DNA of 64,000 nucleotides, from contig NZ_KI911559.1 in NCBI RefSeq assembly GCF_000515255.1, positions 1,401,548-1,465,547 on the forward strand, read 5' to 3'. The notes under the pieces were generated by a model, which worked only from the letters and a program-made list of their open reading frames with translations, was not told the origin of the DNA and did no database searches. This stretch comes from Rhodovibrio salinarum DSM 9154. GTDB lineage: Bacteria; Pseudomonadota; Alphaproteobacteria; Kiloniellales; Rhodovibrionaceae. The first letter of the stretch is position 1. The number at the start of each line of letters is the position of its first letter. Positions 7,226 to 39,502 of this stretch are shown in pieces. Both the position numbers and the translations under genes were made by a program.

Positions 7226-8617
7226 TCAGGCCGCCGCCAGGCCTTCGCGCTGGACCCAGTCCCAGGTCTCCTCCAGCGCTCGGCCGAAAGCGGCGACGAT
7301 CTCGTCGATCTGTTTCGGCTCGATCACCAGCGGCGGGCAGAACGCCAGCGTGTCGCCCATGTTGCGCAAGATCACGCCATGGTCGCGGCAGCGCGCGTCG
7401 AGGTAGCCGCCGACCTTGCCCACCGGATCGAACGGCGTGCGGGTCGCCTTGTCGGCCAGCAGCTCGACGCCGGCGATCAGGCCGACGCCGCGAACCTCGC
7501 CGACCAGCGGATGGTCGGCGTAGGCGCGCAGGCCGTCCTGCAGGTGCGGCGACAGGTCGCGGGCCCGCGCGGCGATATCCATCTCCTCGTAGATCTTCAG
7601 CGTCTCCAGCGCCACGGCCGCGGCGACCGGGTGGCCGGAGTAGGTGAAGCCGTGGGCGAAGGTGCCGATCTTGTGCGTGTTGTCGGCGATCGCCTGGTAG
7701 ATCTCGTCGCGCATCATGATCGCGGAGATCGGCACGTAGGCGCTCGACAGCGCCTTGGCGCAGGTCACCATGTCGGGCTCGATCCCGAAGGTCTGGCAGC
7801 CGAACATCTGTCCGGTCCGGCCGAAGCCGCAGATCACCTCGTCGGCGATCAGCAGCACGTCGTGCTTCTTCAGCACCGCCTGGACTTTCTTCCAGTAGCC
7901 GGCCGGCGGGATCACGACGCCGCCCGCGCCCATCACTGGCTCGGCGATCATCGCGGCGACCGTCTCCGGCCCCTCGTCCTGGATCAACTGGTCCAACTCG
8001 TCGGCCAGGCGCTGGCTGAACGCCTCCTCGCTCTCCCCGGCGTGCGCCTCGGCATGGTAGTGCGGACAGCCGGTGTGGCGTACGCCCTCGATCGGCAGGT
8101 CGAAGTCGAGGTGGTTCTTCGGGATGCCGGTCAGCGAGCCGGAGGCGATCGTGATGCCGTGGTAGCCGCGCTTGCGGGAGATGATCTTCTTCTTCTCCCG
8201 CCGGCCGAGGGCGTTGTTGTAGTACCAGACGAACTTCACGGCCGTGTCGTTCGCCTCCGACCCGGAGTTGGCGTAGGCAACCTTGCCCATCTTCCCCGGC
8301 GCGATTCCGAGCAGCGTCTCCGACAGCTCGATGACGCTGGGCGGCACCTTGTGCGCGAAGGAGTGGTAGTAGGCGAGTTCGCGCAGCTGCCGCTCGGCCG
8401 CCTGGATCAGCCGCTCCTGGCCGTAGCCCAGCGCCGTGCACCACAGCCCGGCCATCCCTTCGATGTACTGCTTGCCGCTGTCGTCGGTGACGGTGCAGCC
8501 CGCGCCCTTGGTGATGATCAGCGGGCCCTGCTCTTCGTGCGCGCGCGCGTCGGTGTAGGGGTGGAAGTGATAGGCGACGTCGCGTGCGGCCGGGGAATTC
8601 GGACGATCGTGCTGCAT
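7226..8617 (-). CDS. Class III omega-amino acid/polyamine:pyruvate aminotransferase
   Basis: PLP-dependent fold-type I transaminase of 463 residues, related to putrescine/cadaverine:pyruvate (SpuC-like) and beta-alanine:pyruvate aminotransferases. Motifs: GMAGLWCTALGYG near the N-terminus, YANSGSEANDTAVK (phosphate-binding loop), RGYHGITIASGSLTG, MIAEPVMGAGGVVIPP, the PLP-aspartate in LIADEVICGFGRTG, and the Schiff-base Lys288 in TCAKALSSAYVP. The final third has GVILRNMGDTLAFCPPLV. It starts 191 bp from the divergent tRNA-Pro gene and appears monocistronic. The polyamine-type importer 3 kb away makes a diamine substrate attractive, but the family is broad and the substrate is inferred. Confidence 0.92.
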   Translation of the reverse strand: MQHDRPNSPAARDVAYHFHPYTDARAHEEQGPLIITKGAGCTVTDDSGKQYIEGMAGLWCTALGYGQERLIQAAERQLRELAYYHSFAHKVPPSVIELSETLLGIAPGKMGKVAYANSGSEANDTAVKFVWYYNNALGRREKKKIISRKRGYHGITIASGSLTGIPKNHLDFDLPIEGVRHTGCPHYHAEAHAGESEEAFSQRLADELDQLIQDEGPETVAAMIAEPVMGAGGVVIPPAGYWKKVQAVLKKHDVLLIADEVICGFGRTGQMFGCQTFGIEPDMVTCAKALSSAYVPISAIMMRDEIYQAIADNTHKIGTFAHGFTYSGHPVAAAVALETLKIYEEMDIAARARDLSPHLQDGLRAYADHPLVGEVRGVGLIAGVELLADKATRTPFDPVGKVGGYLDARCRDHGVILRNMGDTLAFCPPLVIEPKQIDEIVAAFGRALEETWDWVQREGLAAA

Positions 8618-8808
8618 GGCTTTCGGCTCGGCTGTCCTGCGTAAATAGAAGGGGGTGTCGTTCGACCGCGACAGGCTACGCCGCCGCTGCCGGGCCCGCC
8701 AAGCCTCCCGCGACTCCGGGCGGGGCGAGGGCGTGCCAGAAGTTGAACAAAATCTCGAACGCGGCCATTGTCAGGGCGTCCGTCAGGCGATATACACGCC
8801 CGCGCTGA

Positions 8809-8885
8809 CGGGGCGTAGCTCAGCCTGGTAGAGCGCCGTCTTCGGGAGGCGGAGGCCGTTGGTTCGAATCCAGCCGCCCCGACCA
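8809..8885 (+). tRNA. tRNA-Pro (CGG)
   Basis: A complete cloverleaf of 77 nt with encoded CCA. The acceptor stem CGGGGCG pairs with CGCCCCG. The D arm is GCTC/GAGC, the anticodon stem CCGTC/GGCGG carries loop TTCGGGA (anticodon CGG), and the T arm is GTTGG-TTCGAAT-CCAGC. It is followed by a Rho-independent terminator. Confidence 0.97.
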
Positions 8886-8906
8886 ATATGATTGGCACGT
8901 CGCAAG

Positions 8907-8938
8907 AAGCCGGTTCTCCGAGGGGAGCCGGCTTTTTT
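8907..8938 (+). terminator. Rho-independent terminator of tRNA-Pro
   Basis: The stem AAGCCGG...CCGGCTT, extended by an imperfect TTCTCC/GGAG region, is followed by six T residues (8933-8938). It begins 22 nt after the CCA end of tRNA-Pro. Confidence 0.9.
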
Positions 8939-9014
8939 GCGTTGTGCCATTGCCTGCCCGGTTGCCGAGCCCTTAGCGTCGCGCTGCGAAGTTATACGTG
9001 GAATGGAGGTTTGG

Positions 9015-10202
9015 ATGGCCGGGCGGGGCGCTGCGATTCCGCGGTATCGCCGGTATAGCGGGCCGGCGGTGCTGTCGCAGGGGTTCCGGCCGTTTTTCCT
9101 GGGCGCCGGCGTTTGGGCGGTCGCCGGGATGCTGCTGTGGTCGGGCGTATTGCTTGAGGGCGTGCCGCTGCCCACCGCGTTCCGGCCCGCGGTTTGGCAC
9201 GCGCACGCCATGCTGTTCGGCTTCGTCGGCGCGGCGATGGCCGGGTTCCTGGCGACCGCGGTGCCGAACTGGACCGGCCGGATGCCGATCCAGGGCGCGC
9301 CCCTTGCCATGCTCGCCGGTCTTTGGGCATTGGGACGGCTCGCCTGTGCCACCTCCGGCGTGATCGGCGCGCCGGCGGCGATGATCCTCGATCTGTTGTT
9401 CTTCCTGGCCTTGCCGGCCGCGCTCGCGCGCGAGGTTGTGGCCGGGCGGAACTGGCGCAACCTGCCGGTCGTGGGGGCGACGCTCGTGGTCGCGGGCGCC
9501 AATGCGCTTGTGCACCTGGACCCGGTCGCCGGCGTCGACTCCGGCTATGGCCTGCGGCTGGCGATCGGGGCGTTCGCGTTCCTGATCGCGCTGGTCGGTG
9601 GGCGGATCGTGCCGTCGTTTACCCGCAACTGGCTCGCTAAGCGGGATGGCAGGCACCGCCCGGCCTCCGCCAATCGGGCGGATCGGGCGGTGGTTGCGCT
9701 GACCGGTCTTGCGGCGGCAGCCTGGACGGGGTGGCCGGACCATGCGGTCACGGGCGTGTTGTCGGGCGGGGCCGCGCTCGCCAACGCCTGGCGGCTGAGC
9801 CGCTGGCAGGGGCACCGGACCTGGCGCGAGCCACTGCTGCTCGTGCTGCACGTCGGTTACGCCTGGCTGGCGGTCGGGTTCGGATTGCTCGCGCTCGCCG
9901 CGCTGAGCGATGCGGTGGCGCAGACGACGGCGTTGCACGCGCTGACCGCCGGGGCGATGGGGACCATGCCCGCCGCCGTGATGACCCGCGCGACGCTGGG
10001 ACACACGGGCCGCGCGCTCACCGGGGGGGCAGGGTCGGCCGCGCTGTTCGCGCTGGTGGCGCTTGCCGCCGCGTTGCGTCTCGCGGCCCCGATGTCGGGT
10101 GGGGGATACCTGAGCTTGCTCGGCGCCAGCGCACTTGCCTGGATCGCCGGCTTTGGACTGTACGTGGCGCTCTACGGCCCCCTGCAGATGCGGCCGCGAT
10201 GA
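9015..10202 (+). CDS. NnrS family membrane protein
   Basis: A polytopic inner-membrane protein of 395 residues with about twelve hydrophobic helices. The family hallmark is the early SQGFRPFFLGAGVWA and VWHAHAMLFGFVGAAMAGFLATAVPNW segments, with His residues thought to bind haem or copper. NnrS proteins are linked to nitric oxide metabolism and NO-stress tolerance. The ATG at 9015 is chosen because GGAGG (9005-9009) lies five bases upstream; an ATG at 9003 is also in frame. No nitrite or nitric oxide reductase gene is nearby, and the gene stands alone, convergent with ispB 13 bp away. Function beyond the family name is not established here. Confidence 0.9.
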   Translation: MAGRGAAIPRYRRYSGPAVLSQGFRPFFLGAGVWAVAGMLLWSGVLLEGVPLPTAFRPAVWHAHAMLFGFVGAAMAGFLATAVPNWTGRMPIQGAPLAMLAGLWALGRLACATSGVIGAPAAMILDLLFFLALPAALAREVVAGRNWRNLPVVGATLVVAGANALVHLDPVAGVDSGYGLRLAIGAFAFLIALVGGRIVPSFTRNWLAKRDGRHRPASANRADRAVVALTGLAAAAWTGWPDHAVTGVLSGGAALANAWRLSRWQGHRTWREPLLLVLHVGYAWLAVGFGLLALAALSDAVAQTTALHALTAGAMGTMPAAVMTRATLGHTGRALTGGAGSAALFALVALAAALRLAAPMSGGGYLSLLGASALAWIAGFGLYVALYGPLQMRPR

Positions 10203-10215
10203 TAGGGGGGGATGC

Positions 10216-11280
10216 CTAGTAGGCCCGCTCGATCGAGAAGTCGAGCGCGTCGATCAGGGCCTGCTTGATCTCGCCGTCGGGGAAGACGTCCATCGCGGTG
10301 CGGGCGTTGCGGCCATAGGCGCGGGCGCGTTCCAGGCTGTCATTCAGGCAGTCGTGCTTCTGCAGGAGCTGCATGGCGTGGGGCAGGTCGCCCTCGCGCT
10401 GGTCCATCTCCTCCAGGCAGCGCCGCCAGAACGCCTTTTCGTCCGCGTCCGCGCGCTCGAAGGCGAGCACGACGGGCAGGGTGATCTTCCCCTCGCGGAA
10501 GTCGTCACCGACCGTCTTGCCAAGCGCTTCCTGCTTGGCGGAGTAGTCGAGCACGTCATCGACCAGCTGGAACGCCATGCCCAGGCCGGTGCCGAAGCTG
10601 CGCAGGGCCTGCTCTTCGTCCGCCGAGCGCTCCGCCATCACCGCGCCGATCTGGCAGGCGGCGGCGAACAGCGCGGCCGTCTTGCCCTCGATCACCTCAA
10701 GGTAGGCCTGCTCGTTGGTGTCGGTGTCGTTGGTGGTGATCAGCTGGTGAACCTCGCCCTCGGAGATGATCGCGGAGGCGTTGGACAGGATCTCCAGCGT
10801 GCGCATCGAGCCGTCGGCGACCATCAGCTGAAAGGCGCGGGAGAACAGGAAGTCACCGACCAGCACACTGGCCTGATTGCCCCACAGCGAGTTGGCGGTG
10901 TCCAGCCCGCGGCGCAGTTCGCTCTCGTCGACCACGTCGTCGTGCAGCAGGGTCGCGGTGTGGATGAACTCCACGCTGGCAGCCAGGCCGATGTGCCGGC
11001 GGCCCTGGTAGCCGCACATCCGCGCGCTGGCGAGGGTCAGCAGCGGGCGCAGGCGCTTGCCGCCGGCGGCGATGATGTGGCCGGCGAGTTGTGGGATCAG
11101 CGCCACGGGCGACTGCATATGCTCGCGAATCACCGCGTTGACGGCCTGCAGGTCCTCCGCGCACAGCTGTTGCAGCGGCGCGATCCCCTGCTTGGCGTCG
11201 CCCTTGTCGCTGCCCTTATCGCTGTCTGTGCCCGGTGTATTGCCCGGGGCCTGCTTGTTCGCGTCGGGGGCCACGGCCAC
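10216..11280 (-). CDS. ispB: Polyprenyl (octaprenyl/decaprenyl) diphosphate synthase
   Basis: Trans-isoprenyl diphosphate synthase that builds the C40-C50 side chain of ubiquinone; 354 residues from the chosen start. The first Asp-rich motif is in LLHDDVVDES and the second in LVDDVLDYS. GGKRLRPLLTLA, GNQASVLVGDFLFSRAF and KTAALFAAACQIGA are typical of the family. The frame is open to 11418, but the GTG at 11280 has GAGGAG seven bases upstream and gives a normal length, whereas the upstream extension overlaps a pair of palindromes that look regulatory. The N-terminal 25 residues are low-complexity (DSDKGSDKGDAK). The product chain length cannot be read from sequence. Confidence 0.93.
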   Translation of the reverse strand: MAVAPDANKQAPGNTPGTDSDKGSDKGDAKQGIAPLQQLCAEDLQAVNAVIREHMQSPVALIPQLAGHIIAAGGKRLRPLLTLASARMCGYQGRRHIGLAASVEFIHTATLLHDDVVDESELRRGLDTANSLWGNQASVLVGDFLFSRAFQLMVADGSMRTLEILSNASAIISEGEVHQLITTNDTDTNEQAYLEVIEGKTAALFAAACQIGAVMAERSADEEQALRSFGTGLGMAFQLVDDVLDYSAKQEALGKTVGDDFREGKITLPVVLAFERADADEKAFWRRCLEEMDQREGDLPHAMQLLQKHDCLNDSLERARAYGRNARTAMDVFPDGEIKQALIDALDFSIERAY

Positions 11281-21753: not shown

Positions 21754-23358
<1,605 letters not shown>

Positions 23359-24744: not shown

Positions 24745-25907
24745 TCTTCTGGAACTGTAATTCATATCATTTACTGGATCAGTTTCGGGAGATGATGGGA
24801 TGTCAGGTCGGGTGGCGGATGCAGTTGTTCTGAGTGACGAGGAGCAGGTTTTTCTCGAAGCGCAGGTTCGTCGGCATAAGGCGGCACGGTCGCTTTCGGA
24901 TCGCTGCCGAATGATCCTTCTCTGTGCTCAGGGTTTGCAGAGTAAGGAAGTCGCGAACCGGCTCGGTGTGCATGAGCACACGGTTGGAAAGTGGCGCAGA
25001 CGGTTCGTGAAGGACCGGATCGAGGGCCTCACGGACGAACATCGCCCCGGCCGGCCGCGCACAGTTTCGGACGACCAGGTTGCCGATGTGATCGAGCGCA
25101 CGCTGCACACCACGCCCAGGGACGCCACCCACTGGTCGATCCGAACCATGGCCGCCGAGAGCGGGCTGTCGCACACCACGATCCGGCGGATCTGGACAGC
25201 CTTCGGCCTGCAGCCACACCGGAGCGAGACGTTCAAGCTCTCGACCGATCCCCTATTCGTCGACAAGGTGCAGGACATCGTCGGCCTTTACATGTCGCCG
25301 CCGAACCGGGCCATTGTGTTGTGCGTGGACGAAAAATCCCAGATCCAGGCGCTGGATCGCGAGCAACCGGTGCTGCCGATGGCGCCGGGTGTCGCCGAGC
25401 GGCGAACCCACACATACATTCGCTATGGCACCACGTCACTCTTTGCTGCGCTCGACATCGCCACAGGGGCGGTGATCGGGAAATGTTACAAGCGCCACCG
25501 GACGACAGAGTTCCTGGACTTTCTCAAGAAGGTCGATGCTGCCGTGCCGAAGGGGCCGGACGTGCATCTGGTGATGGATAACTACGCCACCCACAAGGCA
25601 CCGAGCATCAAGGCCTGGTTGGCACGCCGCCCGCACTGGCACGTCCACTTCACCCCCACATCGGCAAGCTGGATCAACCAGGTCGAACGTTGGTTCGCGG
25701 AACTGACCCGCAAGCAGTTGCAACGCGGCGTTCACCGCTCGACCACCGAACTGGAAGCCGATATCGCTGCCTTCATCAAGGCGCATAACGAAAATCCAAA
25801 ACCCTACAAATGGGTCAAATCCGCCGACGAAATACTCGCCGCCGTCAAGCGGTTCTGCCAGCGAACGGAGCAAACCCTATGCGCCGAACTTTAGATTCAG
25901 GTGACTA
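24742..25907 (+). mobile_element. IS630-family insertion sequence in the mreB stop codon
   Basis: The element proper runs 24744-25905 (1162 bp) and is flanked by the TA dinucleotide duplication typical of the family (24742-24743 and 25906-25907). The ends are imperfect inverted repeats: the left GTCTTCTGGAAC... and the right end read inward GTCACCTGAATC... agree at 13 of the first 20 positions. It carries one transposase gene. It separates mreB from mreC, which are normally co-transcribed. Confidence 0.9.
24800..25894 (+). CDS. IS630-family transposase
   Basis: A DDE transposase of 364 residues. An N-terminal helix-turn-helix region (SLSDRCRMILLCAQGLQSKEVANRLGVHEHTVGKW in parts) is followed by a winged-helix-like segment (HWSIRTMAAESGLSHTTIRRIW). 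The catalytic acidic residues appear in LCVDEKSQIQ, in LVMDNYATHK and in SWINQVERWFAEL (the DDE triad with E). The single frame is intact, so the element may be active. Its stop lies 11 bp from the right end of the element. Transcription is in the same direction as the mre genes, so read-through could help express mreC. Confidence 0.95.
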   Translation: MSGRVADAVVLSDEEQVFLEAQVRRHKAARSLSDRCRMILLCAQGLQSKEVANRLGVHEHTVGKWRRRFVKDRIEGLTDEHRPGRPRTVSDDQVADVIERTLHTTPRDATHWSIRTMAAESGLSHTTIRRIWTAFGLQPHRSETFKLSTDPLFVDKVQDIVGLYMSPPNRAIVLCVDEKSQIQALDREQPVLPMAPGVAERRTHTYIRYGTTSLFAALDIATGAVIGKCYKRHRTTEFLDFLKKVDAAVPKGPDVHLVMDNYATHKAPSIKAWLARRPHWHVHFTPTSASWINQVERWFAELTRKQLQRGVHRSTTELEADIAAFIKAHNENPKPYKWVKSADEILAAVKRFCQRTEQTLCAEL

Positions 25908-29695: not shown

Positions 29696-30843
29696 GCCTT
29701 GCCGGTTTCAACCGCAACCCCGAACTCAGCCTGGGTCAGAAGATCCTGCAGGTGAACTGGGGCCTGATCCTGCTGATCGCGGCGTTGGCGGGGATCGGCT
29801 GCGTGATGCTCTACTCTGCGGCCGATGGCAGCCTGACGCCGTGGGCCCAGCGGCACGCCCTGCGCTTCGGCGGTGGCCTGGTGCTGCTGCTGACGGTCGC
29901 GATGTTCGACATCCGCTTCTGGTTCCGCTGGTCGTATCCAATCTACGTGGTCGGCGTGTTGCTGCTGATCGCCGTGGAGGTGATGGGCACGGTCGGCATG
30001 GGCGCGCAGCGCTGGATCCAGCTGGGCCCCCTGACCCTGCAGCCGTCCGAGGTGATGAAGGTCGCCATCGTAATGGCACTCGCCCGTTACTTTCATGGCA
30101 TGGCGGAAGAGGAGATCGTCCGTCCGACCAAGCTGATCGGGCCGCTGGTGCTGGTTGGCCTGCCGACCGTGCTGGTGCTGAAGCAGCCCGACCTGGGCAC
30201 CTCGCTGATCCTGATCATGGTTTCCGGCGTGCTGTTCTTCGCCGCCGGCGTGCGCTTGTGGAAGTTCGGCGTCGTCGCGGCGTTGGGCGCGGCCGCGGTG
30301 CCGGTCGCCTGGCAGTTTCTGCACGACTATCAAAAGCAGCGGGTGCTCACCTTCCTGAACCCGGAAAGCGATCCGCTGGGCGCCGGCTACCACATCATGC
30401 AGTCCAAGATCGCGCTGGGGGCCGGCGGGATGTTCGGCAAGGGGCTGCTGGAGGGTTCGCAGTCGCATCTGAACTTCCTGCCGGAAAAGCAGACCGACTT
30501 CATCTTCACCATGCTGGCCGAGGAGTTCGGGCTGATGGGCGGGGTGGCGCTGCTGGTGCTGTACGCGCTCGTCATCCTCTATGGCTTCGCAATCGCGTTG
30601 CGCGCCCGCAACCAGTTCGGCCGCCTGCTCGCGATCGGCCTGACAGCCAACCTGTTCCTCTACGTCTTCATCAACATCGCCATGGTGATGGGCCTGATCC
30701 CGGTGGTCGGCGTGCCGCTGCCGCTGGTCTCCTACGGTGGCACGGCGATGCTGGCGATCATGATCTCGTTCGGTCTGGTGGTCTCGGTCTACGTCCACCG
30801 CGACGTGCGCATCCCGCGCCGCGGCCTGGGCGAGGAGGATTGA
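29692..30843 (+). CDS. rodA: Rod shape-determining glycosyltransferase RodA (SEDS family)
   Basis: A polytopic inner-membrane protein of 383 residues and about ten helices that polymerises lipid II with PBP2. Family segments are LGPLTLQPSEVMKVAIVMALARYFH, LKQPDLGTSLI, ESDPLGAGYHIMQSKIALGAGGMFGKGL, LPEKQTDFIFTMLAEEFGLMG and VSYGGTAMLA (each seen in part). The catalytic Asp of SEDS proteins lies in the large periplasmic loop near ESDPLGAGYH. The ATG at 29692 overlaps the mrdA stop. It is the last gene of the cluster. Confidence 0.97.
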   Translation: MSLAGFNRNPELSLGQKILQVNWGLILLIAALAGIGCVMLYSAADGSLTPWAQRHALRFGGGLVLLLTVAMFDIRFWFRWSYPIYVVGVLLLIAVEVMGTVGMGAQRWIQLGPLTLQPSEVMKVAIVMALARYFHGMAEEEIVRPTKLIGPLVLVGLPTVLVLKQPDLGTSLILIMVSGVLFFAAGVRLWKFGVVAALGAAAVPVAWQFLHDYQKQRVLTFLNPESDPLGAGYHIMQSKIALGAGGMFGKGLLEGSQSHLNFLPEKQTDFIFTMLAEEFGLMGGVALLVLYALVILYGFAIALRARNQFGRLLAIGLTANLFLYVFINIAMVMGLIPVVGVPLPLVSYGGTAMLAIMISFGLVVSVYVHRDVRIPRRGLGEED

Positions 30844-30996
30844 CCCTAGGTCTCGGGGGCACTGGCGGCTGTGCGTCGGGCGCCGGAGAGCAGCGCGGGC
30901 CGGCCGGAGTCGGACACGGCTTGGCAAAAACCACGGGCCTGAGACAAAACAGGCCTTCACAAAGCCCCCGCGCCTTGCTATCACCCGGCCCGCGTT

Positions 30997-31072
30997 GGGC
31001 CTGTAGCTCAGTTGGTAGAGCAGTCGACTCTTAATCGACTTGTCCAAGGTTCGAGTCCTTGCAGGCCCACCA
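30997..31072 (+). tRNA. tRNA-Lys (CTT)
   Basis: A complete 76-nt cloverleaf with encoded CCA. Acceptor GGGCCTG/CAGGCCC; D arm GCTC/GAGC; anticodon stem GTCGA/TCGAC with loop CTCTTAA (anticodon CTT); T arm CAAGG-TTCGAGT-CCTTG. It ends 99 bp before the first CRISPR repeat. Confidence 0.97.
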
Positions 31073-31171
31073 TCCCCTCCCTTCCGGTAATGTTCGCCCG
31101 CCGTTGGCGGAACCGCTGGTAAGTGCTCTGAGCGGGCACCATTCGTCCGCGACCGAGACGCCAACGCGGCC
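31073..31171. other. Short spacer between tRNA-Lys and the CRISPR array
   Basis: Ninety-nine bases with no gene. It is not AT-rich, which is unusual if it were the adaptation leader. A GCCCGC...GCGGGC inverted repeat can be drawn in it. It could hold tRNA-Lys 3' processing signals and, if the array is read left to right, the promoter-proximal flank. Confidence 0.4.
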
Positions 31172-33248
31172 GTTGCGGCTGACGCTCGATCTCTAAGCGG
31201 CTATAATGTACATCGTGCAGGTGTCGCCGTCGTAGCAGTTGCGGCTGACGCTCGATCTCTAAGCGGCTATAATCGCCACGCCCCGCATGCGCCCGCCGGC
31301 GTAGTTGCGGCTGACGCTCGATCTCTAAGCGGCTATAATACGATATTATGTCGATAACTCGCGTACAAGGTTGCGGCTGACGCTCGATCTCTAAGCGGCT
31401 ATAATTAAAGCTGCATCCCACCGACCAATTCGGTCGTTGCGGCTGACGCTCGATCTCTAAGCGGCTATAATAACCGCATAATGCGGTCGATGTTGTGGAC
31501 AGTTGCGGCTGACGCTCGATCTCTAAGCGGCTATAATGATACCTCGACGCGGTTCACCGGATGATGGGTTGCGGCTGACGCTCGATCTCTAAGCGGCTAT
31601 AATGCCGGGCCGGAGCGGGATCGGGTCCACACCGTTGCGGCTGACGCTCGATCTCTAAGCGGCTATAATGATAGCGGTCCGCAATAGCCTCGTCAGAAAG
31701 TTGCGGCTGACGCTCGATCTCTAAGCGGCTATAATGCTCCAAGAATATATTGACAATCACTGCAGTTGCGGCTGACGCTCGATCTCTAAGCGGCTATAAT
31801 GGCACATCATGGTGCGGCAGCAGAAGACCGGTTGCGGCTGACGCTCGATCTCTAAGCGGCTATAATGTTCGAGGAAGTCGGGCGGTCAATTCAATCGTTG
31901 CGGCTGACGCTCGATCTCTAAGCGGCTATAATCGAGTTCCGCAAGACGTTGTTCGAGGACAAGTTGCGGCTGACGCTCGATCTCTAAGCGGCTATAATGC
32001 TTCGGCTTGCTCATTCCGGTCTCGCGAGTTGCGGCTGACGCTCGATCTCTAAGCGGCTATAATGGCCTTCATGTCGCCGCGGTAGGTGTTGGAGTTGCGG
32101 CTGACGCTCGATCTCTAAGCGGCTATAATATTTCTGACCTACGCCGAGGGTGCGCCGCAGTTGCGGCTGACGCTCGATCTCTAAGCGGCTATAATGAACA
32201 CCCGTATGCAGTCGTGGTCGCGTACGTTGCGGCTGACGCTCGATCTCTAAGCGGCTATAATCTTCCTGAGTATCGGGGCGGCGCGACGACATGTTGCGGC
32301 TGACGCTCGATCTCTAAGCGGCTATAATGGATCTCTACAGCGGGAAAGTCCTGGCCTGGTTGCGGCTGACGCTCGATCTCTAAGCGGCTATAATAAACAA
32401 TTGGCGCACTAGCACGAAAGCTGAGTTGCGGCTGACGCTCGATCTCTAAGCGGCTATAATCCTGCCCGACGGCCTGCGGGCCGGCATCCCGTTGCGGCTG
32501 ACGCTCGATCTCTAAGCGGCTATAATGATATGGAGTTCGCTGCGCGTCCGTGGGAGTTGCGGCTGACGCTCGATCTCTAAGCGGCTATAATGCTCTTGGC
32601 CGCGGTAGGCGGTCGAGACGGTTGCGGCTGACGCTCGATCTCTAAGCGGCTATAATGGTTTCGAGAGCACGTCGACCCCTGCGAAGTTGCGGCTGACGCT
32701 CGATCTCTAAGCGGCTATAATGGTGCCCCGATCTCGACGGTGATCCGCTCGGTTGCGGCTGACGCTCGATCTCTAAGCGGCTATAATCGGCCGGCAACGC
32801 CGACGCCGGCGTCGAGTGTTGCGGCTGACGCTCGATCTCTAAGCGGCTATAATGACGACGCCCACGACGACCGGCACACGCAAGTTGCGGCTGACGCTCG
32901 ATCTCTAAGCGGCTATAATAAGCCCCGGCATGCCAGCCGGTAGTGATGGTTGCGGCTGACGCTCGATCTCTAAGCGGCTATAATGCGCCCGCTGCGCTTC
33001 GGCAACGTCGGCGTGTTGCGGCTGACGCTCGATCTCTAAGCGGCTATAATTTCCGCCATCAGTAAGGCACCTCTTCTGCGGTTGCGGCTGACGCTCGATC
33101 TCTAAGCGGCTATAATCCAGGCATCAAATGGGCCACGACCGTAGGGGTTGCGGCTGACGCTCGATCTCTAAGCGGCTATAATACCTGGTGGCGATTGTGC
33201 GCGTCCTCCCAGGTTGCGGCTGACGCTCGATCTCTAAGCGGCTATAAT
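31172..33248 (+). CRISPR. Type II-C CRISPR array, 32 repeats and 31 spacers
   Basis: The 36-bp repeat begins GTTGCGGCTGACGCTCG and ends AAGCGGCTATAAT; the first copy is 31172-31207 and the last 33213-33248. I counted 32 copies with no visible sequence variation and 31 unique spacers, of which most are 30 bp, several 29 bp, and one (after repeat 17) 31 bp. Orientation is given as plus because the repeat's complement matches an anti-repeat at 39363, because GTTG-type 5' ends are typical of crRNA repeats in type II, and because a Rho-independent terminator follows the array on the plus strand. The TATAAT at each repeat end, with CTGACG 17 bp upstream, looks like a promoter in every repeat. Confidence 0.98.
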
Positions 33249-33260
33249 AGATACCTTGCT

Positions 33261-33288
33261 AAGCCCCTGACCCAGGGGCTTTTTCTTG
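33261..33288 (+). terminator. Rho-independent terminator after the CRISPR array
   Basis: A 9-bp perfect stem AAGCCCCTG/CAGGGGCTT (33261-33269 with 33273-33281), a 3-nt loop and a T-rich tail (TTTTTCTT). It lies 12 bp past the last repeat. The T-run is on the plus strand only, so it stops transcripts leaving the array rather than those coming from cas2. Confidence 0.88.
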
Positions 33289-33321
33289 CCCAGCCAATGG
33301 GCGAATTTGAACGTTTGGCGG

Positions 33322-33666
33322 TCAGAAAAGGGCGAGTTGGTTTGGATTTCCACGGCCGCGTTCCCGTTTTCGTCCCGTAAAAATGCGCGCGTTGGCGTAT
33401 TGTTTATCGGTCAGGGTAACGATGTGCACCTTGCCGCTTGCTGGCAAGCTGCCGCGAATGCGCTGGATGCGCGTTTCCGCCGCTTCCTTGCTTTCGACGA
33501 AGCGGAGATAGACGGAAAACTGCGCCATCTCGAAGCCTTCGTCGAGCAGGAAGTTGCGAAAGTCGGTCGCCGCCTTGCGTTCCCGCTTGGTGCCCACCGG
33601 TAGATCGAACATCACATAGAGCCACATGAGACGATACCCGCTGAGTGCCGGATACGACCGGGCCAT
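33322..33666 (-). CDS. cas2: CRISPR-associated endoribonuclease-like protein Cas2
   Basis: A 114-residue adaptation protein that forms the spacer-integration complex with Cas1. The ferredoxin-like fold starts at LMWLYVMFDLPVGTKRERKAA, with the conserved Asp after the first strand, followed by DFRNFLLDEGFEMAQFSVYLR and KVHIVTLTDKQY. The C-terminus ends NPNQLALF, common in type II-C Cas2. The ATG at 33666 begins 3 bp after the cas1 stop; an internal Met at residue 14 is also possible. It is the last gene of the cas9-cas1-cas2 operon and converges on the array. Confidence 0.95.
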   Translation of the reverse strand: MARSYPALSGYRLMWLYVMFDLPVGTKRERKAATDFRNFLLDEGFEMAQFSVYLRFVESKEAAETRIQRIRGSLPASGKVHIVTLTDKQYANARIFTGRKRERGRGNPNQLALF

Positions 33667-33669
33667 GGG

Positions 33670-34569
33670 TCAAGCCAGCAGCGGCGGTACCCGCCGTGCC
33701 AGGTCCAGTTCACGTGCCGTGCCGGCGTAGCATTGCGCCAGCGACACGGCGGCGCGTTCCAGGCAGGTGCCGACCGGGGTCATCCCGTCCGTCGTGCTCA
33801 TGTCCAGGGTCAGGATTCGCGCCAGGTCCGGCTTGGTGGTGCGGTCGACGGTTTCCGCCCCGTCGTTCACCAGATCGGCAACCAACAGGTCCGCCATGGG
33901 GCGGAACGGTTCCATCAGGTCGTCGGCCAGTTGGAAAGCGTTGCCCCGCTGCCGATGGGCGAGACCGAGGCTGGGGTGCAGGCCCGCCGCCATGATCGCC
34001 CGCGCCGTGCCGGCGCGCAGCACGGTATAGGCGTAGTTCAGCAGGGCGTTGACCCCGTCCATGTCGCGGTTGCGGCGGAAGTCCGGTCCGAACAGGAGCG
34101 GCCAGTAGCGCCGGGCCGCCTGCGCCTCCACATTCTCTGGATCGCCGGAACGGACCTTGCGCTGCAGCAGTTGGAAACCGGTGTGGCTTGCGCCGACGGC
34201 ACGCAGCGTTTCCGCCTGCCCGGCGATCTTGGCCCGGACCAGTTGGGCCCACAGCCGCTTTTTCAGCGGCTTCGGCGCTGCCGCCTGGTCGGCGAGCCGG
34301 CCGGCCTGGGTGTGGTGGCCGGCGACCGGCAGCAGGAAGGCAGCCGGCAAATGGTTCGATCCGCACAGCACCACCGGGGCACCGCGCTCCGCCAGGGCGG
34401 CGATCAGCGCGTTGGAGTAGGTCAGGCCATAGCCGCTGGCGATCACCGCGACCACGTCGTCGAGCGGCACGCGGCCGATTTCCGCGCCGTTGGCGGCGAC
34501 GGTCAGGAAGCCACGGTCCTTGGCAAGGTGCCGCCCGGTTTCCGCCACCTCCACCACGCGCCCGATCAC
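33670..34569 (-). CDS. cas1: CRISPR-associated integrase Cas1
   Basis: A 299-residue integrase that inserts new spacers with Cas2. The N-terminal beta domain has DDVVAVIASGYGLTYSNALIAALAERGAPVVLC. The catalytic alpha domain carries the metal ligands Glu in NVEAQAARRYWPLLFG, His in GLHPSLGLAH, and the acidic residue in QLADDLMEPFRPM. Length and pattern fit type II Cas1. The ATG at 34569 overlaps the cas9 stop (ATGA), showing coupled translation. No csn2 or cas4 gene is present, consistent with subtype II-C. Confidence 0.96.
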   Translation of the reverse strand: MIGRVVEVAETGRHLAKDRGFLTVAANGAEIGRVPLDDVVAVIASGYGLTYSNALIAALAERGAPVVLCGSNHLPAAFLLPVAGHHTQAGRLADQAAAPKPLKKRLWAQLVRAKIAGQAETLRAVGASHTGFQLLQRKVRSGDPENVEAQAARRYWPLLFGPDFRRNRDMDGVNALLNYAYTVLRAGTARAIMAAGLHPSLGLAHRQRGNAFQLADDLMEPFRPMADLLVADLVNDGAETVDRTTKPDLARILTLDMSTTDGMTPVGTCLERAAVSLAQCYAGTARELDLARRVPPLLA

Positions 34570-37500
34570 CGGGGCTCTCCATCGCGTGCAGGCTTGACCC
34601 GGCCGAGAACGTCAACATGGACGCGTCGGGCGTTGGCAGTTTTCAGTTTGCTCCAAGTGGCGAACACCCATTGCAGGTGATCATCCTTGTCTTCATGCCG
34701 CGCTTGAATGCTGCCGCCTTCGTTATGGGCGGCGAGACGCACGCGTTTTGCGGAGGGTTCCAGGCGATGCACGCGGTAGACACAGCTGCCTAGCCCATTG
34801 TCGAAATCCGCTTCGACGCAGTCACCCGGGTGCAGCCGCATCACGAGCCGGGCGTTCGGATTCTTATCTGGCCAGTCCGGCGTGTAGCCGGGCTGGTTGG
34901 CGTCGTGCATGGTCACCCCTTCGCCCTGCCAGGTGCCGTCGGGGAGCTCGAAAATCTCCACCCGGTGGTTGTCGCCGGGGACGTACGCCTTCTCGAAGGT
35001 CCGGCCCAGGCTGTCGGTATGGCGGACGGTGCGCACGGACTTCTCGGTCTTCAGGAGGCGCACGCGGTAGACCTGCTGGTCCCGGGCGAATTCATCCAGC
35101 AGGGCGCGCCGGCGTGCGCCGGTCAATGTGCCTTCCCGCGTTTCTGCCGCCTGCAAGTGGGCGTGCAGTTTCTCCCGCAGGCGGGCGTCGCGAATCTGGC
35201 CGATCTCTTTGTTGGTGAGGTCCGTCACCGGTTTGCGGGTCACCAAGTTGAAGCGCTTGTCGTCGATCTCCTCGTCGACCCGGCCATAGGCGGTCTGCTC
35301 GTGCAGGCGGCCGGCGGTTTGATGCACGTCGGCCTGGGCGCCGGGGGCCAGGCCGTGGTCGGGCTTGTGGCTCACCACCATTGTCCGCAGCCGGGCCCAC
35401 AGGTCGTCGCGGTAGCCGGGGTAGGGCTCCGGAAACGCGCCCTGCGGAAACCGGCGGTCGAGGTCGAGTTCTTCCGCTTGGGCGGAGGCGCGGGCGATCC
35501 GGTTCAGCAGGCCGCGGTCGGTGTTGGCGACGACAAAGGCGTCGATCGTGTGGTGCCGGTGGTCGTTCCGGTTTTTCGCCGCTGTATCGCTCTCGGCTTC
35601 CGCTTCGGTTTTGCGATTATCCTCCCGTGGCAGGACGTTCAGACCCCACTTGCCGCGGAGCATCGCGGTGAGCCGTCCGGGCACGACCCAGACTTGGTCG
35701 CAAACCTGCTCCAGGTAGGTCTTGGCGAGGCGCGACATGTATTTGGTGTCGTTCAGTTGTCTGGCGAGGAAATCGCCGTGCTCTGCGAGCTTTTCCATCG
35801 CATCCGGCTGGAAGCGCCAAGCTTTTGCCGGCACGATCCGCTGGGCCCGGGCGACGATCTCTTCCAACTCCGTCCCGGACCAGACATCCACCGGCGGGCG
35901 CTTGCCCTTTTGGCGGTTGGCTTCGCGCGTGCACAGCACCTTGTTCGCGAAGCTGTCGTCCAGGGTCTTGGAGTGCGGCAGAATATGCTCGATTTCGATC
36001 TGGGGCGTGAACAGGTCTTGGCAGCCGATTGGGGTGCCGGTGAAGACGCATACCCGTTCGTCCGGAGGCAGCTCTTCGTAAAGGCGTAGCCGCAGCATCG
36101 AATCGCGGCTGACAGGCACACCGAGCTCCGCCAGTCGGGCGCGGCGTTGCTCGTTGCGGGTCTCGTTCTCCCGGTTGCGCTGCTGATCCTTGGCCTTTTG
36201 CTCTTGGTTCTGCTTCAGCTCGCGGCTCAGCTCGATCACGACTTCTGTCGGCGGGCCATAGCTATCGATCAGCGCATTGACCAGCTTGCGCACCTGGTTG
36301 AGCGCGATGTGCACGGTCGGGTTCGCCACCCGGCCAACCCGCTCCTGCGAACCGTCCGGCGCGGCCGGGTTGGAGATCACGTGACGGGGCAGCGCCTCGC
36401 CATAGTAGGGCAGGCGCGTTGCAAGCCCGTCGCGGCGGTGATCGGAGTGGTGGTGGCCGATCGCCGCGACAGCTTCATCGTAGGTTAGGGGTCGGGCATA
36501 GACCTCGCCCGTCTCGGGATCGCCCCCGTCCTCGCGGGACTGCGTCTCCATCCCCTGGACCAGATCCCGCAGCACGCCGCGTCCGAATTGTCCGTGTCCG
36601 TCGGGCAAGCGCACGGTGGTCAGGTGCTTGGCCTTATCGGTGTCGATACCAAGGGTGTCGCGCAGCCATTCCGCCAGGGCGTCGGGGTCCTCGACGGCGA
36701 GCAGGTGTTCGACGACGGCAATCTGGCGGTCGCGGGGGAGGGCCGGCCACTGCTTGCCCAGGGCGTTCTTGTGGGCGAGTTTTGCCGCTGTCTGGTCCGG
36801 CGGGAAACCGGTCTGGCCGGCCAACTCGTAATTGAACCGGGCCTCGCCCGGCAGCTTGAGGGCCTTGCGCAGACTCTCGAAGGTCACGCGGTTGGTGGAT
36901 CGGCAACTGAGTACGCCGATCAGCTTATCGCGCTCCTCAAGGGTCAGATAACGCGCCGGCTGCCCGGGCCGGGCGATCACGCGCAGTTGTGCCACGTCTT
37001 GAAGCATGCGGAAGCGCTGGAACAGCGGATGCGCCTTGGGGGCGCGGGCACCAAGGTCGACCGTCACGCCATCCAGCTCGACCTCCGCGACCGCCGGGCG
37101 CAGCGTGCAGCGGCCGACCGGTGGTGTCTTCAGCGGGCGCTGCTCAATGACAATGCGCTTGATGTCCTGCAGCAGATCGCCGGTTAGCTGGGGATGGTGG
37201 GGCTGTTGCGCCTGCCAGATTGCGTCCAGTTCTTGTTCGATCAGTTGGCGCGAGGGGTACCAGGGGTAGGTGACCTTGGTGCCATTACGCTGGGGACGGA
37301 AACGGACCGTCTGAGGCGTTTCAGCTTGGTCGGTGCGGTGGCCATATTTGTCGCGCCCGTGCCGCTTCGCCAGCAGCTGTCCAAGTGTTGTGGCAGCTTC
37401 TGCATCCAGGGCCTGCGTGAGCTCGGCGATGCCTTGCTTGATGGCGCCCTGCTCGGCGTCCTGATTATCGGCCAGTCGATTCGACTGGAAGCCGCGGCGC

Positions 37501-37913
37501 TGGTTCAGATGGAAGATCGCGCGGCCCAATTCATAGGCGTTGAGCGGCCCTTCCAACGCAGCGGCGCGCAACCAGTAAGGGTCCAGCCGTTCCAGCTCTT
37601 TGCGCTTTTCCACGTCCTCCGGCATGAGGCCGGCTGTGATCAGCGTCTGCATCAGCCGCCGCTGACGTCGAACGAAGCGGTCACGCCGTCGACGGGCGCT
37701 GCGCGCAGCTCGACGGTCTGCAGCCAGCGATTCCTTTGATTGCGGATCGCGTCCGGCCTCTTCTTGCGGGGTGAGCAGACGGGTCCCCGCATCCAGCAAG
37801 CCGACGGGCTGATGCGCTGGCCGGCCATCTGTGGTGGTGGTCCTTTCCAGATGAAGGGCACACCACCCGATGGAGTTGCTGCCCAGATCGAGTCCTAGCC
37901 GGTACTGTTGCAT
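34566..37913 (-). CDS. cas9: Type II-C CRISPR effector nuclease Cas9
   Basis: RNA-guided double-strand DNA endonuclease of 1115 residues, within the II-C size range. RuvC-I has Asp9 in YRLGLDLGSNSIGW. An Arg-rich bridge helix follows (RAARSARRRRDRFVRRQRR). RuvC-II has Glu561 in VVIELSRELKQ, the HNH domain has His643 in IEIEHILPHSKTLDDSFANK, and RuvC-III has Asp791 in HHTIDAFVVA. All four catalytic positions are present, so the enzyme looks active. The C-terminal 250 residues are the wedge/PAM-interacting region. An in-frame GTG at 37961 could add 16 residues; ATG 37913 is preferred for its canonical N-terminus. cas9 heads the operon, 115 bp from an ISAs1-type element. Confidence 0.97.
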   Translation of the reverse strand: MQQYRLGLDLGSNSIGWCALHLERTTTTDGRPAHQPVGLLDAGTRLLTPQEEAGRDPQSKESLAADRRAARSARRRRDRFVRRQRRLMQTLITAGLMPEDVEKRKELERLDPYWLRAAALEGPLNAYELGRAIFHLNQRRGFQSNRLADNQDAEQGAIKQGIAELTQALDAEAATTLGQLLAKRHGRDKYGHRTDQAETPQTVRFRPQRNGTKVTYPWYPSRQLIEQELDAIWQAQQPHHPQLTGDLLQDIKRIVIEQRPLKTPPVGRCTLRPAVAEVELDGVTVDLGARAPKAHPLFQRFRMLQDVAQLRVIARPGQPARYLTLEERDKLIGVLSCRSTNRVTFESLRKALKLPGEARFNYELAGQTGFPPDQTAAKLAHKNALGKQWPALPRDRQIAVVEHLLAVEDPDALAEWLRDTLGIDTDKAKHLTTVRLPDGHGQFGRGVLRDLVQGMETQSREDGGDPETGEVYARPLTYDEAVAAIGHHHSDHRRDGLATRLPYYGEALPRHVISNPAAPDGSQERVGRVANPTVHIALNQVRKLVNALIDSYGPPTEVVIELSRELKQNQEQKAKDQQRNRENETRNEQRRARLAELGVPVSRDSMLRLRLYEELPPDERVCVFTGTPIGCQDLFTPQIEIEHILPHSKTLDDSFANKVLCTREANRQKGKRPPVDVWSGTELEEIVARAQRIVPAKAWRFQPDAMEKLAEHGDFLARQLNDTKYMSRLAKTYLEQVCDQVWVVPGRLTAMLRGKWGLNVLPREDNRKTEAEAESDTAAKNRNDHRHHTIDAFVVANTDRGLLNRIARASAQAEELDLDRRFPQGAFPEPYPGYRDDLWARLRTMVVSHKPDHGLAPGAQADVHQTAGRLHEQTAYGRVDEEIDDKRFNLVTRKPVTDLTNKEIGQIRDARLREKLHAHLQAAETREGTLTGARRRALLDEFARDQQVYRVRLLKTEKSVRTVRHTDSLGRTFEKAYVPGDNHRVEIFELPDGTWQGEGVTMHDANQPGYTPDWPDKNPNARLVMRLHPGDCVEADFDNGLGSCVYRVHRLEPSAKRVRLAAHNEGGSIQARHEDKDDHLQWVFATWSKLKTANARRVHVDVLGRVKPARDGEPR

Positions 37914-37981
37914 TATCGCACCCCCATGCTCGCCCCATGCCTGTGGCGCCGCGCTCGCCACATCCGCGTCTTAGCCAAGAA

Positions 37982-38011
37982 ATACTAGCGTGTCGGTCGT
38001 GATTTCGACAG
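37982..38011 (-). promoter_or_regulatory. Possible cas9 promoter
   Basis: On the minus strand a CTGTCG (38011-38006) and a TAGTAT (37987-37982) are 18 bp apart, 69 bp upstream of the cas9 ATG. The inserted IS begins only a few bases upstream of this -35-like element, so the promoter would have survived the insertion. Match quality is modest. Confidence 0.35.
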
Positions 38012-38017
38012 GGGTGC

Positions 38018-39304
38018 TAGGCGATCGCACGGCAACGAGTCCGGGTTAACGGGCGGCAGAGGTGAGGATCTTCTGGAGGTAGTCGGTGTTCCAGCCGGCG
38101 ATTTTCCGGGCGGTTTTCAGGGAGTTTTTGTCTTTGCCGCGTCGCAGGATGTTGAAGGCGAAGCGCCTGACCAGCGCCATGTTCTTGGCGCCGTGCCCGC
38201 GGCGCAGGCGTGAGAGGTCCTCCTTGAAGGTCACGTCGAGCACCCAGTGCAGACTCTCGATCCCCCAGTGGCCGCGGATCGCCTGGGCGGCGCGCTCGGG
38301 GGTGAGTTTGGCAGAGGAGAGGTAGTACCGGATCTGCTCGCTGACGTGGCCGGCCTTCTCGCTGCGAGAGGTCGTCTGGATCAGGCAGGCCAGGCCGGGA
38401 AACCGCGGTTCGCCGGGATAGCGCCGGTTGCCGCCGAGCCACGCGATATCATGGCAGACCCGGTAGGTCCGGGTTTCCAGCCGGCCATGGTCCTTGTCGA
38501 CGACCTCCAGACTGGGCAGCCCGGCGCTGGCGGGGTCGGTGAAGAAGAGGTCGGCCTCCGCGTGTAGGCTGGGCTGGTTGGCCTTGAGCGCGACGACGTA
38601 ATCCGCTCCGGCCTCCTGGATCGCGGCGGCGACCGCGGGCGTGGCGCCGATCGCGTCCACAGTGACCAAAGCGCCGTTGACCGGCAGGCGCCCCAAAATG
38701 GCGCGGATCGCTGCGGTCTCGTTAGCTTTGTCCGGCACGGCTTCCTGCGCCAGGACGAGGCGCTCGTTGGACGCCCAGGCGGAGACCAGATGAAGCGCCG
38801 CCTGGGCGGCATTGGTATCGTGGCTGCGCCGCAACGTCTTGCCGTCGAGCGCGACGACCTCGGGGCCATCTGGCCGCAAGTCGGCCACCCAGGCCATGAA
38901 CGCCGCCTCGAACAGCGCGGGATCGATCCGGTTCATCACAGTTCGCAGCCAGTCCTCCTTGGGCACGCCGAAGTAGAACTCTCCGTGTTGGCGCAGGAAC
39001 GCCACGTGGCTGTCGCCCCAAGCCACGATCTCGTCGTAGTCATCGCATCCAGCGATGGTGGCGCTGGTCACCAGGAACAACAGCTCCGACAGCTGGAAGC
39101 GAACCCGCCACGGATCGCGGGGATCCTCGACCCGGCTGAAGTGCTGCAACAAGAGGCGCAGACTATCGCGGGGCGGCGCCTGATCCATCCGCAGGTCTCC
39201 TTTCGAACCGGGGAAACCTGTTTGAATCAAACCGCTCCGCGTCGGCACCAGCGAAATCCGTACCTCACCGCGTTAACCTGAGCAGGTTGCCGTGTAGGCG
39301 ATCG
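38018..39304 (-). mobile_element. ISAs1-family insertion sequence between cas9 and tracrRNA
   Basis: The element proper is 38028-39294 (1267 bp). Its ends are inverted repeats beginning CACGGCAAC and continuing to GGTTAACG, 19 of 24 positions matching. It is flanked by a perfect 10-bp direct repeat TAGGCGATCG (38018-38027 and 39295-39304), the target duplication. It carries one intact transposase gene. The exact duplication suggests a fairly recent insertion. Confidence 0.93.
38046..39188 (-). CDS. ISAs1-family transposase (H-repeat-associated type)
   Basis: A DDE transposase of 380 residues. The N-terminal domain has HFSRVEDPRDPWRVRFQLSELLFL in parts, then AGCDDYDEIVAWG. The catalytic core shows ALDGKTLRRSHD, LVTVDAIGATPAVAAAI and DYVVALKANQP, with the C-terminal Glu region RGHWGIESLHWVLDVTFKED. 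This is the DDE_Tnp_1-associated pattern of ISAs1 elements. The ATG at 39188 has AAAGGAGA seven bases upstream; a 20-residue upstream extension is less likely. The frame is intact. Confidence 0.93.
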   Translation of the reverse strand: MDQAPPRDSLRLLLQHFSRVEDPRDPWRVRFQLSELLFLVTSATIAGCDDYDEIVAWGDSHVAFLRQHGEFYFGVPKEDWLRTVMNRIDPALFEAAFMAWVADLRPDGPEVVALDGKTLRRSHDTNAAQAALHLVSAWASNERLVLAQEAVPDKANETAAIRAILGRLPVNGALVTVDAIGATPAVAAAIQEAGADYVVALKANQPSLHAEADLFFTDPASAGLPSLEVVDKDHGRLETRTYRVCHDIAWLGGNRRYPGEPRFPGLACLIQTTSRSEKAGHVSEQIRYYLSSAKLTPERAAQAIRGHWGIESLHWVLDVTFKEDLSRLRRGHGAKNMALVRRFAFNILRRGKDKNSLKTARKIAGWNTDYLQKILTSAAR

Positions 39305-39355
39305 CAACACGCTTGACAGGAAAGATTGGACATCGGAGAGTATTGCTACGGGTGT

Positions 39356-39472
39356 TGTTTGTTAGCCGCTTAGAGATCGAGTGTCACCCGTTAACAAGCA
39401 CCTTTGAGTGCACAGAATCCCTCCTCTGTTTTGGAGGGGCGCGCGGCGGGCTGCGGCCCGCCGTTTGCGTTT
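39356..39472 (+). ncRNA. tracrRNA gene of the type II-C system
   Basis: The segment 39363-39395 is the reverse complement of the CRISPR repeat over almost its full length: TAGCCGCTTAGAGATCGAG is exact, then a wobble, one mismatch and a one-base bulge near the end of the duplex, as in known crRNA:tracrRNA pairs. Downstream are a GCAC/GTGC nexus-like hairpin (39398-39411), a CCCTCC/GGAGGG hairpin (39419-39438) and a GGCGGGC/GCCCGCC hairpin with GTTT tail (39445-39466) that would terminate transcription. The gene is on the opposite strand to cas9. A TTGACA is present at 39313-39318, but no good -10 was found, so the 5' end is approximate. Confidence 0.88.
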
Positions 39473-39502
39473 GGACTTGTGCGCGCGCCGGAGGGGCGGT
39501 GG

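Follow-up and report, generated by a model that had tools for sequence, protein, structure and literature searches.

The CRISPR array at positions 31172..33248 (forward strand) of the window, by which the whole 64-kb stretch of analysed DNA is meant, raises the question of whether each repeat contains a promoter of its own. The array consists of 32 exact copies of a 36-nt repeat (GTTGCGGCTGACGCTCGATCTCTAAGCGGCTATAAT), the first starting at 31172 and the last ending at 33248, and of 31 spacers of 29–31 nt (24 of 30 nt, six of 29 nt and one of 31 nt). The original prediction, that every repeat ends in TATAAT and displays CTGACG 17 bases upstream, was confirmed by exact count. In 32/32 repeats CTGACG occupies positions 8–13 and TATAAT positions 31–36, with a gap of exactly 17 bases. 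TATAAT was detected 32 times in the window, in each case within a repeat on the forward strand; the remainder of both strands is free of it. The hexamer is preceded by GGC and not by TGN, so that an extended -10 element (TGn) is absent from the window repeat. TG precedes the hexamer in 37 of the 65 distinct repeats of the sample described below, and TGn is thus not a defining feature of the II-C repeat-promoter group. No further copy of the repeat (first 22 nt, at most three mismatches) was found elsewhere in the single-contig 4.18-Mb genome. The region 31107–31142 was considered as a degenerate 33rd repeat, as the spacing fits, but it was rejected: it is identical at 17/36 positions, and its local alignment score was reached in 374/2000 shuffles and in 198/708 further pieces of the window. 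Comparison of the spacers with phage records gave just six weak matches (E 0.2–0.6).

The genes cas9, cas1 and cas2 are contiguous and located on the reverse strand, with the array on one side. They were identified as cas2 (33322..33666; TIGR01573, E 3.4e-17; PF09827), type II cas1 (33670..34569; TIGR03639 cas1_NMENI, E 2.1e-68) and cas9 (34566..37961; 1131 aa as listed; TIGR01865, E 1.2e-166; RuvC_III, HNH_4 and Cas9_a). The true start of cas9 may lie slightly downstream of the listed GTG. On the other side lies a gene for an ISAs1-family transposase (38046..39248, reverse strand; NF033564, E 1.3e-102), which is not part of the CRISPR system. The corresponding insertion (about 38009–39315, ends approximate; inverted arms at 38028–38051 and 39271–39294, 79% complementary) separates cas9 from a putative tracrRNA at about 39349..39475 on the forward strand (MFE -54.7 kcal/mol, z -2.66), which holds an anti-repeat (39359..39394, forward strand) and a terminator-like hairpin (39443–39464, forward strand). 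By eye, the right end of the insertion coincides with, or lies only a few bases from, a TTGACA at 39313–39318, and this motif may be the -35 of the tracrRNA. Neither csn2 nor cas4 was found at the locus among five window proteins run against family libraries. With a Cas9 harbouring RuvC and HNH domains, the cas9-cas1-cas2 set and a candidate tracrRNA with anti-repeat, the locus is, judging from its gene content, a type II-C CRISPR-Cas system in a GC-rich alphaproteobacterium. Elsewhere in the window, an IS630-family transposase gene (24800–25894) lies between genes that resemble mreB and mreC. A protein resembling 2-isopropylmalate synthase (21754–23358), which we take to be LeuA, shows 96% identity to a protein of Rhodovibrio sodomensis, followed by 80% to one of Ferruginivarius sediminum, and this single protein suggests a Rhodovibrio-like alphaproteobacterium as the host.

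A promoter scan of the region 30800–33700 delivered 34 sites, compared to 1.3 ± 1.2 in shuffled sequences, and 32 of them are the repeats. As the repeats are copies and represent one event, their 32-fold repetition adds no evidence. When a single repeat was shuffled, a TATAAT end was obtained in about 1/10,000 shuffles, whereas 8.0% of them had four or more of the six -35 bases at a spacing of 16–18. Chance alone favours the -10 and says nothing on the -35. Across the whole genome, TTGACN-N17-TATAAT with at most one mismatch occurs at 34 places, of which 32 are the repeats. Outside the repeats and with at most two mismatches, 89 places were counted (one of them within the array, on its opposite strand) against 104 for the reversed pattern, indicating that such sites are not enriched genome-wide as such.

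For comparison, 113 further loci, all from Pseudomonadota, were fetched, 101 chosen by Cas9 and 12 by cas1. The Cas9 loci were collected in rounds (45/48 other genomes, 28/29 new, 1/1 new and 27/31, one fetched earlier); a single-protein search of genome contigs returned no Cas9 relatives. Including the window, 109 of 114 loci showed a Cas9 match; the script found an array in 80 of these, and 29/109 were without script-detectable array. Arrays were oriented solely by their antisense position relative to cas9. The repeats were reduced to a set of 65 distinct ones and to a non-redundant set of 33 that differ by at least seven edits over the first 28 nt; since the repeats share ancestry, the loci are not independent. 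One locus (L046) was dropped as a minisatellite, manually entered repeats were used for L049 and L062, the repeat of L096 was trimmed by one base, and for L068 the first array alone was counted. L129, with its array on the other strand, was scored as failing the orientation test, and its array was reversed in later tests. Three named plasmid relatives were read, in one of which the script detected an array. As controls, 22 distinct repeats (10 non-redundant) were taken from 27 loci with stronger TIGR00287 cas1 matches, classed as a group by this match; six of the 27 gave no array.

In the orientation given by the cas9 strand, TA at -12/-11 (six and five bases from the repeat end) was present in 79/80 loci and TAnnnT in 76/80. 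The corresponding numbers were 64/65 and 61/65 for distinct repeats, and 32/33 and 29/33 for non-redundant ones, whereas reading the latter on the wrong strand gave 1/33. None of the 10 non-redundant control repeats of other cas1 types displayed TAnnnT at either end. The failures comprise three repeats ending in GCTATAAC, GCTAAAAC and GCTATAAC, plus L129. The most critical bases of a -10 element are T-12, A-11 and T-7. Column information over 29 non-redundant repeats reached 2.00 bits for T31, 1.78 for A32 and 1.42 for position 36, next to 0.06, 1.20 and 0.82 bits for positions 33, 34 and 35, respectively; the GTT at the repeat start, G29 and C30 are conserved as well. The last six columns of the repeat thus look like a -10 element. 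Two loci of the sample showed peculiarities. L129 has the sole array out of 80 on the cas9 strand, and its repeat ends in TATAAT once reversed. In L259, a plasmid of Azospirillum thermophilum, cas9 is annotated at 8004–11248 as two overlapping ORFs, suggesting that the gene may be frameshifted or misassembled.

Conservation of the repeat end could also reflect base-pairing with the tracrRNA. An anti-repeat was found in 79/80 loci; in 78 it shares the strand of the array, and in 75 it lies past the 5' end of cas9. A few of those with low scores may have arisen by chance. Among 63 distinct repeats the paired fraction was 0.95–1.00 over positions 16–24, while positions 31–36 gave 0.68, 0.81, 0.70, 0.67, 0.51 and 0.51; positions 1, 3 and 9 at the 5' side pair as poorly as the repeat end. 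Such a role is favoured by position 31 being paired in 68% and position 32 in 81% of these repeats, yet positions 35–36 are paired in just 51%, and TAnnnT is nonetheless kept in 61/65 distinct repeats. In the window, repeat and anti-repeat form 24 consecutive pairs (positions 9–32, unbroken with G-U allowed), and of positions 33–36 one is paired, with 33, 34 and 36 unpaired. On these sequence comparisons, tracrRNA pairing does not account for the kept -10 bases and is a very improbable reason for their retention. The anti-repeat of the window is complementary to GCTAACAA, and the repeat of the closest relative (L039) ends in GCTAAACT; the window repeat end may have come closer to TATAAT at a time when the tracrRNA was already fixed.

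The oldest repeats of the arrays offered a further test of the promoter. According to one study (PMC12080349), the first repeat of II-C arrays is the oldest, new spacers enter at the last repeat, and first repeats are mutated in 60%, mostly within the first 15 nt. Feussner and colleagues consider that a lower number of mutations could be due to retained promoter function. If the array were transcribed from elsewhere, the first repeat would be without use, and even decay would be expected. As all 32 repeats of the window are identical, its first one undamaged, this analysis rests on the relatives. After exclusion of nine arrays near contig edges, 71 first repeats remained, of which 24 showed no damage and 47 did, the latter including 46 distinct ones. 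Over positions 1–7, 8–14, 15–22, 23–30 and 31–36, the 237 changes in these 46 repeats were distributed as 135, 61, 27, 11 and 3, and TA together with the last base was unaltered in 44/46. The detector misses first repeats that carry over 12 mismatches, and the 5' end was possibly replaced by flanking DNA, which may explain part of the 5'-sided decay; counts were therefore also restricted to the remaining positions. From position 9 onward, 3/90 changes fell in 31–36 versus 19.3 expected, and within positions 17–36 it was 3/29 versus 8.7 expected (p = 0.012). The 1500 later repeats contained 55 changes, five in 31–36 versus 9.2 expected, which is no clear deficit. The positions of the changes counted here fit the retained-promoter idea of Feussner and colleagues. 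The decayed oldest repeats can be considered as a natural deletion series for the promoter footprint; they suggest that the promoter would need about the last 14 bases of the repeat and not the supposed -35. Upstream of the first repeat of L125, a further decayed repeat was observed, of which mainly the 3' part is left; it ends in TATAAT and is nearer to the consensus than the TACAAT of the L125 array itself.

The retention in first repeats also bears on a role of the TAnnnT end in spacer insertion by Cas1-Cas2 instead of transcription. Repeat ends serve in spacer integration, and the GTT at the repeat start is conserved too. However, no TAnnnT end was seen in the 10 non-redundant control repeats, and the end is kept in first repeats whose 5' part decays, while insertion in II-C systems is reported at the last repeat (PMC12080349). 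An insertion role is hence judged quite unlikely as the reason for the conserved end.

A third alternative is a single long precursor, transcribed from a leader promoter or by read-through from a tRNA gene and processed by RNase III together with the tracrRNA, the TATAAT being incidental. A tRNA-Lys (CTT) gene is indeed located upstream on the array strand (30997..31072, forward strand), its 3' end 99 nt before the first repeat. No forward-strand terminator was found by the scan between tRNA-Lys and array, where folding was no better than in shuffles (z 0.20), and base-pairing with the anti-repeat covers most of the repeat. On the other hand, the 3' end of the first repeat would have no task, yet it is kept in the decayed first repeats of relatives. 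The scan also showed no forward promoter-like site from 30800 to the first repeat, which is a weak point as it equally misses whatever promoter drives tRNA-Lys. A precursor as the whole explanation is considered improbable. Precursor transcription and repeat promoters can coexist, and read-through from tRNA-Lys could turn the intact first repeat into a source of extraneous crRNA.

It is thus with high confidence that the array is proposed to belong to a type II-C locus in which each repeat would carry a sigma-70-type promoter, with the 3'-terminal -10 TATAAT as its essential part. This reading is based on the observed repeat sequence, on how well it is conserved among relatives and preserved in their decayed oldest repeats, and on the hairpin described below. 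The initial idea of a consensus promoter in every repeat stood with regard to the -10, as kept in relatives and decayed oldest repeats, and did not stand for CTGACG as -35, given that a match as good occurs by chance in 8% of shuffles.

It is nevertheless possible, though the less favoured option, that both hexamers matter, with CTGACG as a working -35 and a promoter stronger than those of relatives. Over 51 arrays, the mean number of matches to TTGACA was 2.96/6 at a spacing of 16 and 2.33/6 at 17, but the peak is not clean, as a spacing of 23, which falls on the conserved repeat start, scores 2.73. In the 33 non-redundant repeats the best -35 match at 16–18 was 3.45 compared to 2.32 ± 0.16 in shuffles (0/2000 reached it); the stretch is constrained by tracrRNA pairing as well. 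The quality of -10 and -35 correlates (rho 0.41, p 0.018), a relation confounded by base composition. One relative, L074, displays a perfect TTGACA-N16-TGCTATAAT, while the Neisseria-type repeat of L125 has a -35 score of 2/6. In the 30 first repeats changed in positions 7–14, the best -35 match dropped from 2.93 to 2.60, compared to 2.72 for random substitutions at the same sites, 462/500 of which reached the value of the first repeats. As this loss is no better than that produced by random substitutions, the -35 is not visibly kept. On a 12-base score, the window repeat is one of nine with at least 10 among the 65 distinct repeats; it does not stand out as had been supposed, since 8/64 others tie with or exceed it. 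With a bonus for TG, nine repeats outscore it and it ranks 14th of 65, ties being present; L074 scores 12/12 and, unlike the window repeat, possesses the TG as well. CTGACG may help the promoter.

According to the proposed mechanism, RNA polymerase would start from each repeat about 7 nt into the following spacer, and the crRNA would from the outset have a guide of about 24 nt (23–25 nt for spacers of 29–31 nt). The original prediction had given about 22–24 nt for the guide, which the present arithmetic moves to 23–25 nt. A preference for purines at the predicted start as support for the promoter was rejected, as no such preference was found (15/31 at spacer position 7). Processing would be needed only at the 3' side of the crRNA, where the next repeat pairs with tracrRNA. 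New spacers, we infer, would enter at the cas2-side end, where each would gain a copied repeat and hence its own promoter. Run-on transcripts would end at a hairpin 12 nt past the last repeat, and termination at this point would keep the 32 promoters from firing antisense into cas2-cas1-cas9.

This terminator-like hairpin with T run was detected at 33261..33281 on the forward strand (MFE -15.1 kcal/mol, z -2.76), starting 12 nt past the last repeat. In 41/80 loci (13/33 non-redundant) the 100 nt following the last repeat contain a hairpin with subsequent Ts, against 4/80 for the other strand of the same segments; in the 100 nt before the first repeat such a hairpin was present in 6/70 cases. 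In 13 loci the hairpin starts exactly 12 nt past the last repeat. A motif at the start of the hairpin, AAN4YTR, which was chosen after viewing the tested sequences, was found 10–15 nt past the last repeat in 56/80 loci (3.5 in shuffles) and in 22/33 non-redundant ones (1.1 in shuffles). Tentatively, the hairpin with AAN4YTR may be both an insertion mark for Cas1-Cas2 and a common terminator for the repeat promoters. If true, any newly inserted spacer would sit between a copied promoter and the terminator. In that case, antisense transcription from dozens of promoters would be kept out of the cas operon, and crRNA would become more abundant toward the hairpin end, favouring the newest memory. 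Among titles and abstract openings of one limited literature collection, no report of a terminator at the last-repeat end was found; the terminators discussed in PMC12080349 sit upstream of the array.

Repeat-embedded promoters were reportedly described by Zhang et al. in 2013 for the type II-C system of Neisseria meningitidis. Three later texts, citing Zhang 2013, likewise present per-repeat promoters for Neisseria (PMC10309648, PMC13187072, PMC8616872). The Neisseria system resembles the locus studied here in its cas9-cas1-cas2 set, its 36-nt repeat with a -10-like end and an array antisense to the cas genes. The comparison with relatives supports, for the window, a repeat-embedded promoter of the direction and logic known from Neisseria and Campylobacter. 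The Neisseria system differs in having TACAAT preceded by TGC, whereas the window repeat has TATAAT preceded by GGC, with CTGACG at -35 distance. L125, with a Neisseria-type repeat, and most loci of its family end in GCTACAAT. Unlike Neisseria, the host of the window is a GC-rich alphaproteobacterium. In Campylobacter jejuni, another II-C system with tracrRNA, a start site in each spacer and a -10 box in the 3' part of the repeat have been described (Dugar et al., 2013, PMC3656092); these were mapped by differential RNA-seq, while the promoters of the window are deduced from sequence features. Among the relatives, L039 (Cas9 56% identical) shares the repeat frame and a hairpin 12 nt past the last repeat, its repeat ending in GCTAAACT, and the Azospirillum thermophilum plasmid L259 shares the repeat frame, with a repeat that ends in GCTACAAT; both differ from the window in a less perfect -10 hexamer and in having no CTGACG. 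Per-repeat promoters were also proposed for Flavobacterium from RNA-seq and sequence (PMC10309648), stated as general for II-C (PMC12080349), and considered possible for a metagenomic II-C system (PMC10281378). The sources disagree on RNase III: crRNA maturation in C. jejuni is stated to require it (PMC3656092), whereas a review calls the mechanism RNase III-independent (PMC8616872).

As per-repeat promoters have already been published for II-C systems, the array of the window is a further example of a known design. It is a clear one, and the comparative analysis adds independent support for one promoter per repeat as the rule of II-C arrays in the sampled Pseudomonadota. This support extends to a GC-rich alphaproteobacterium in whose 64-kb window TATAAT is present in the repeats only, and where every stored spacer probably has its own transcription start.
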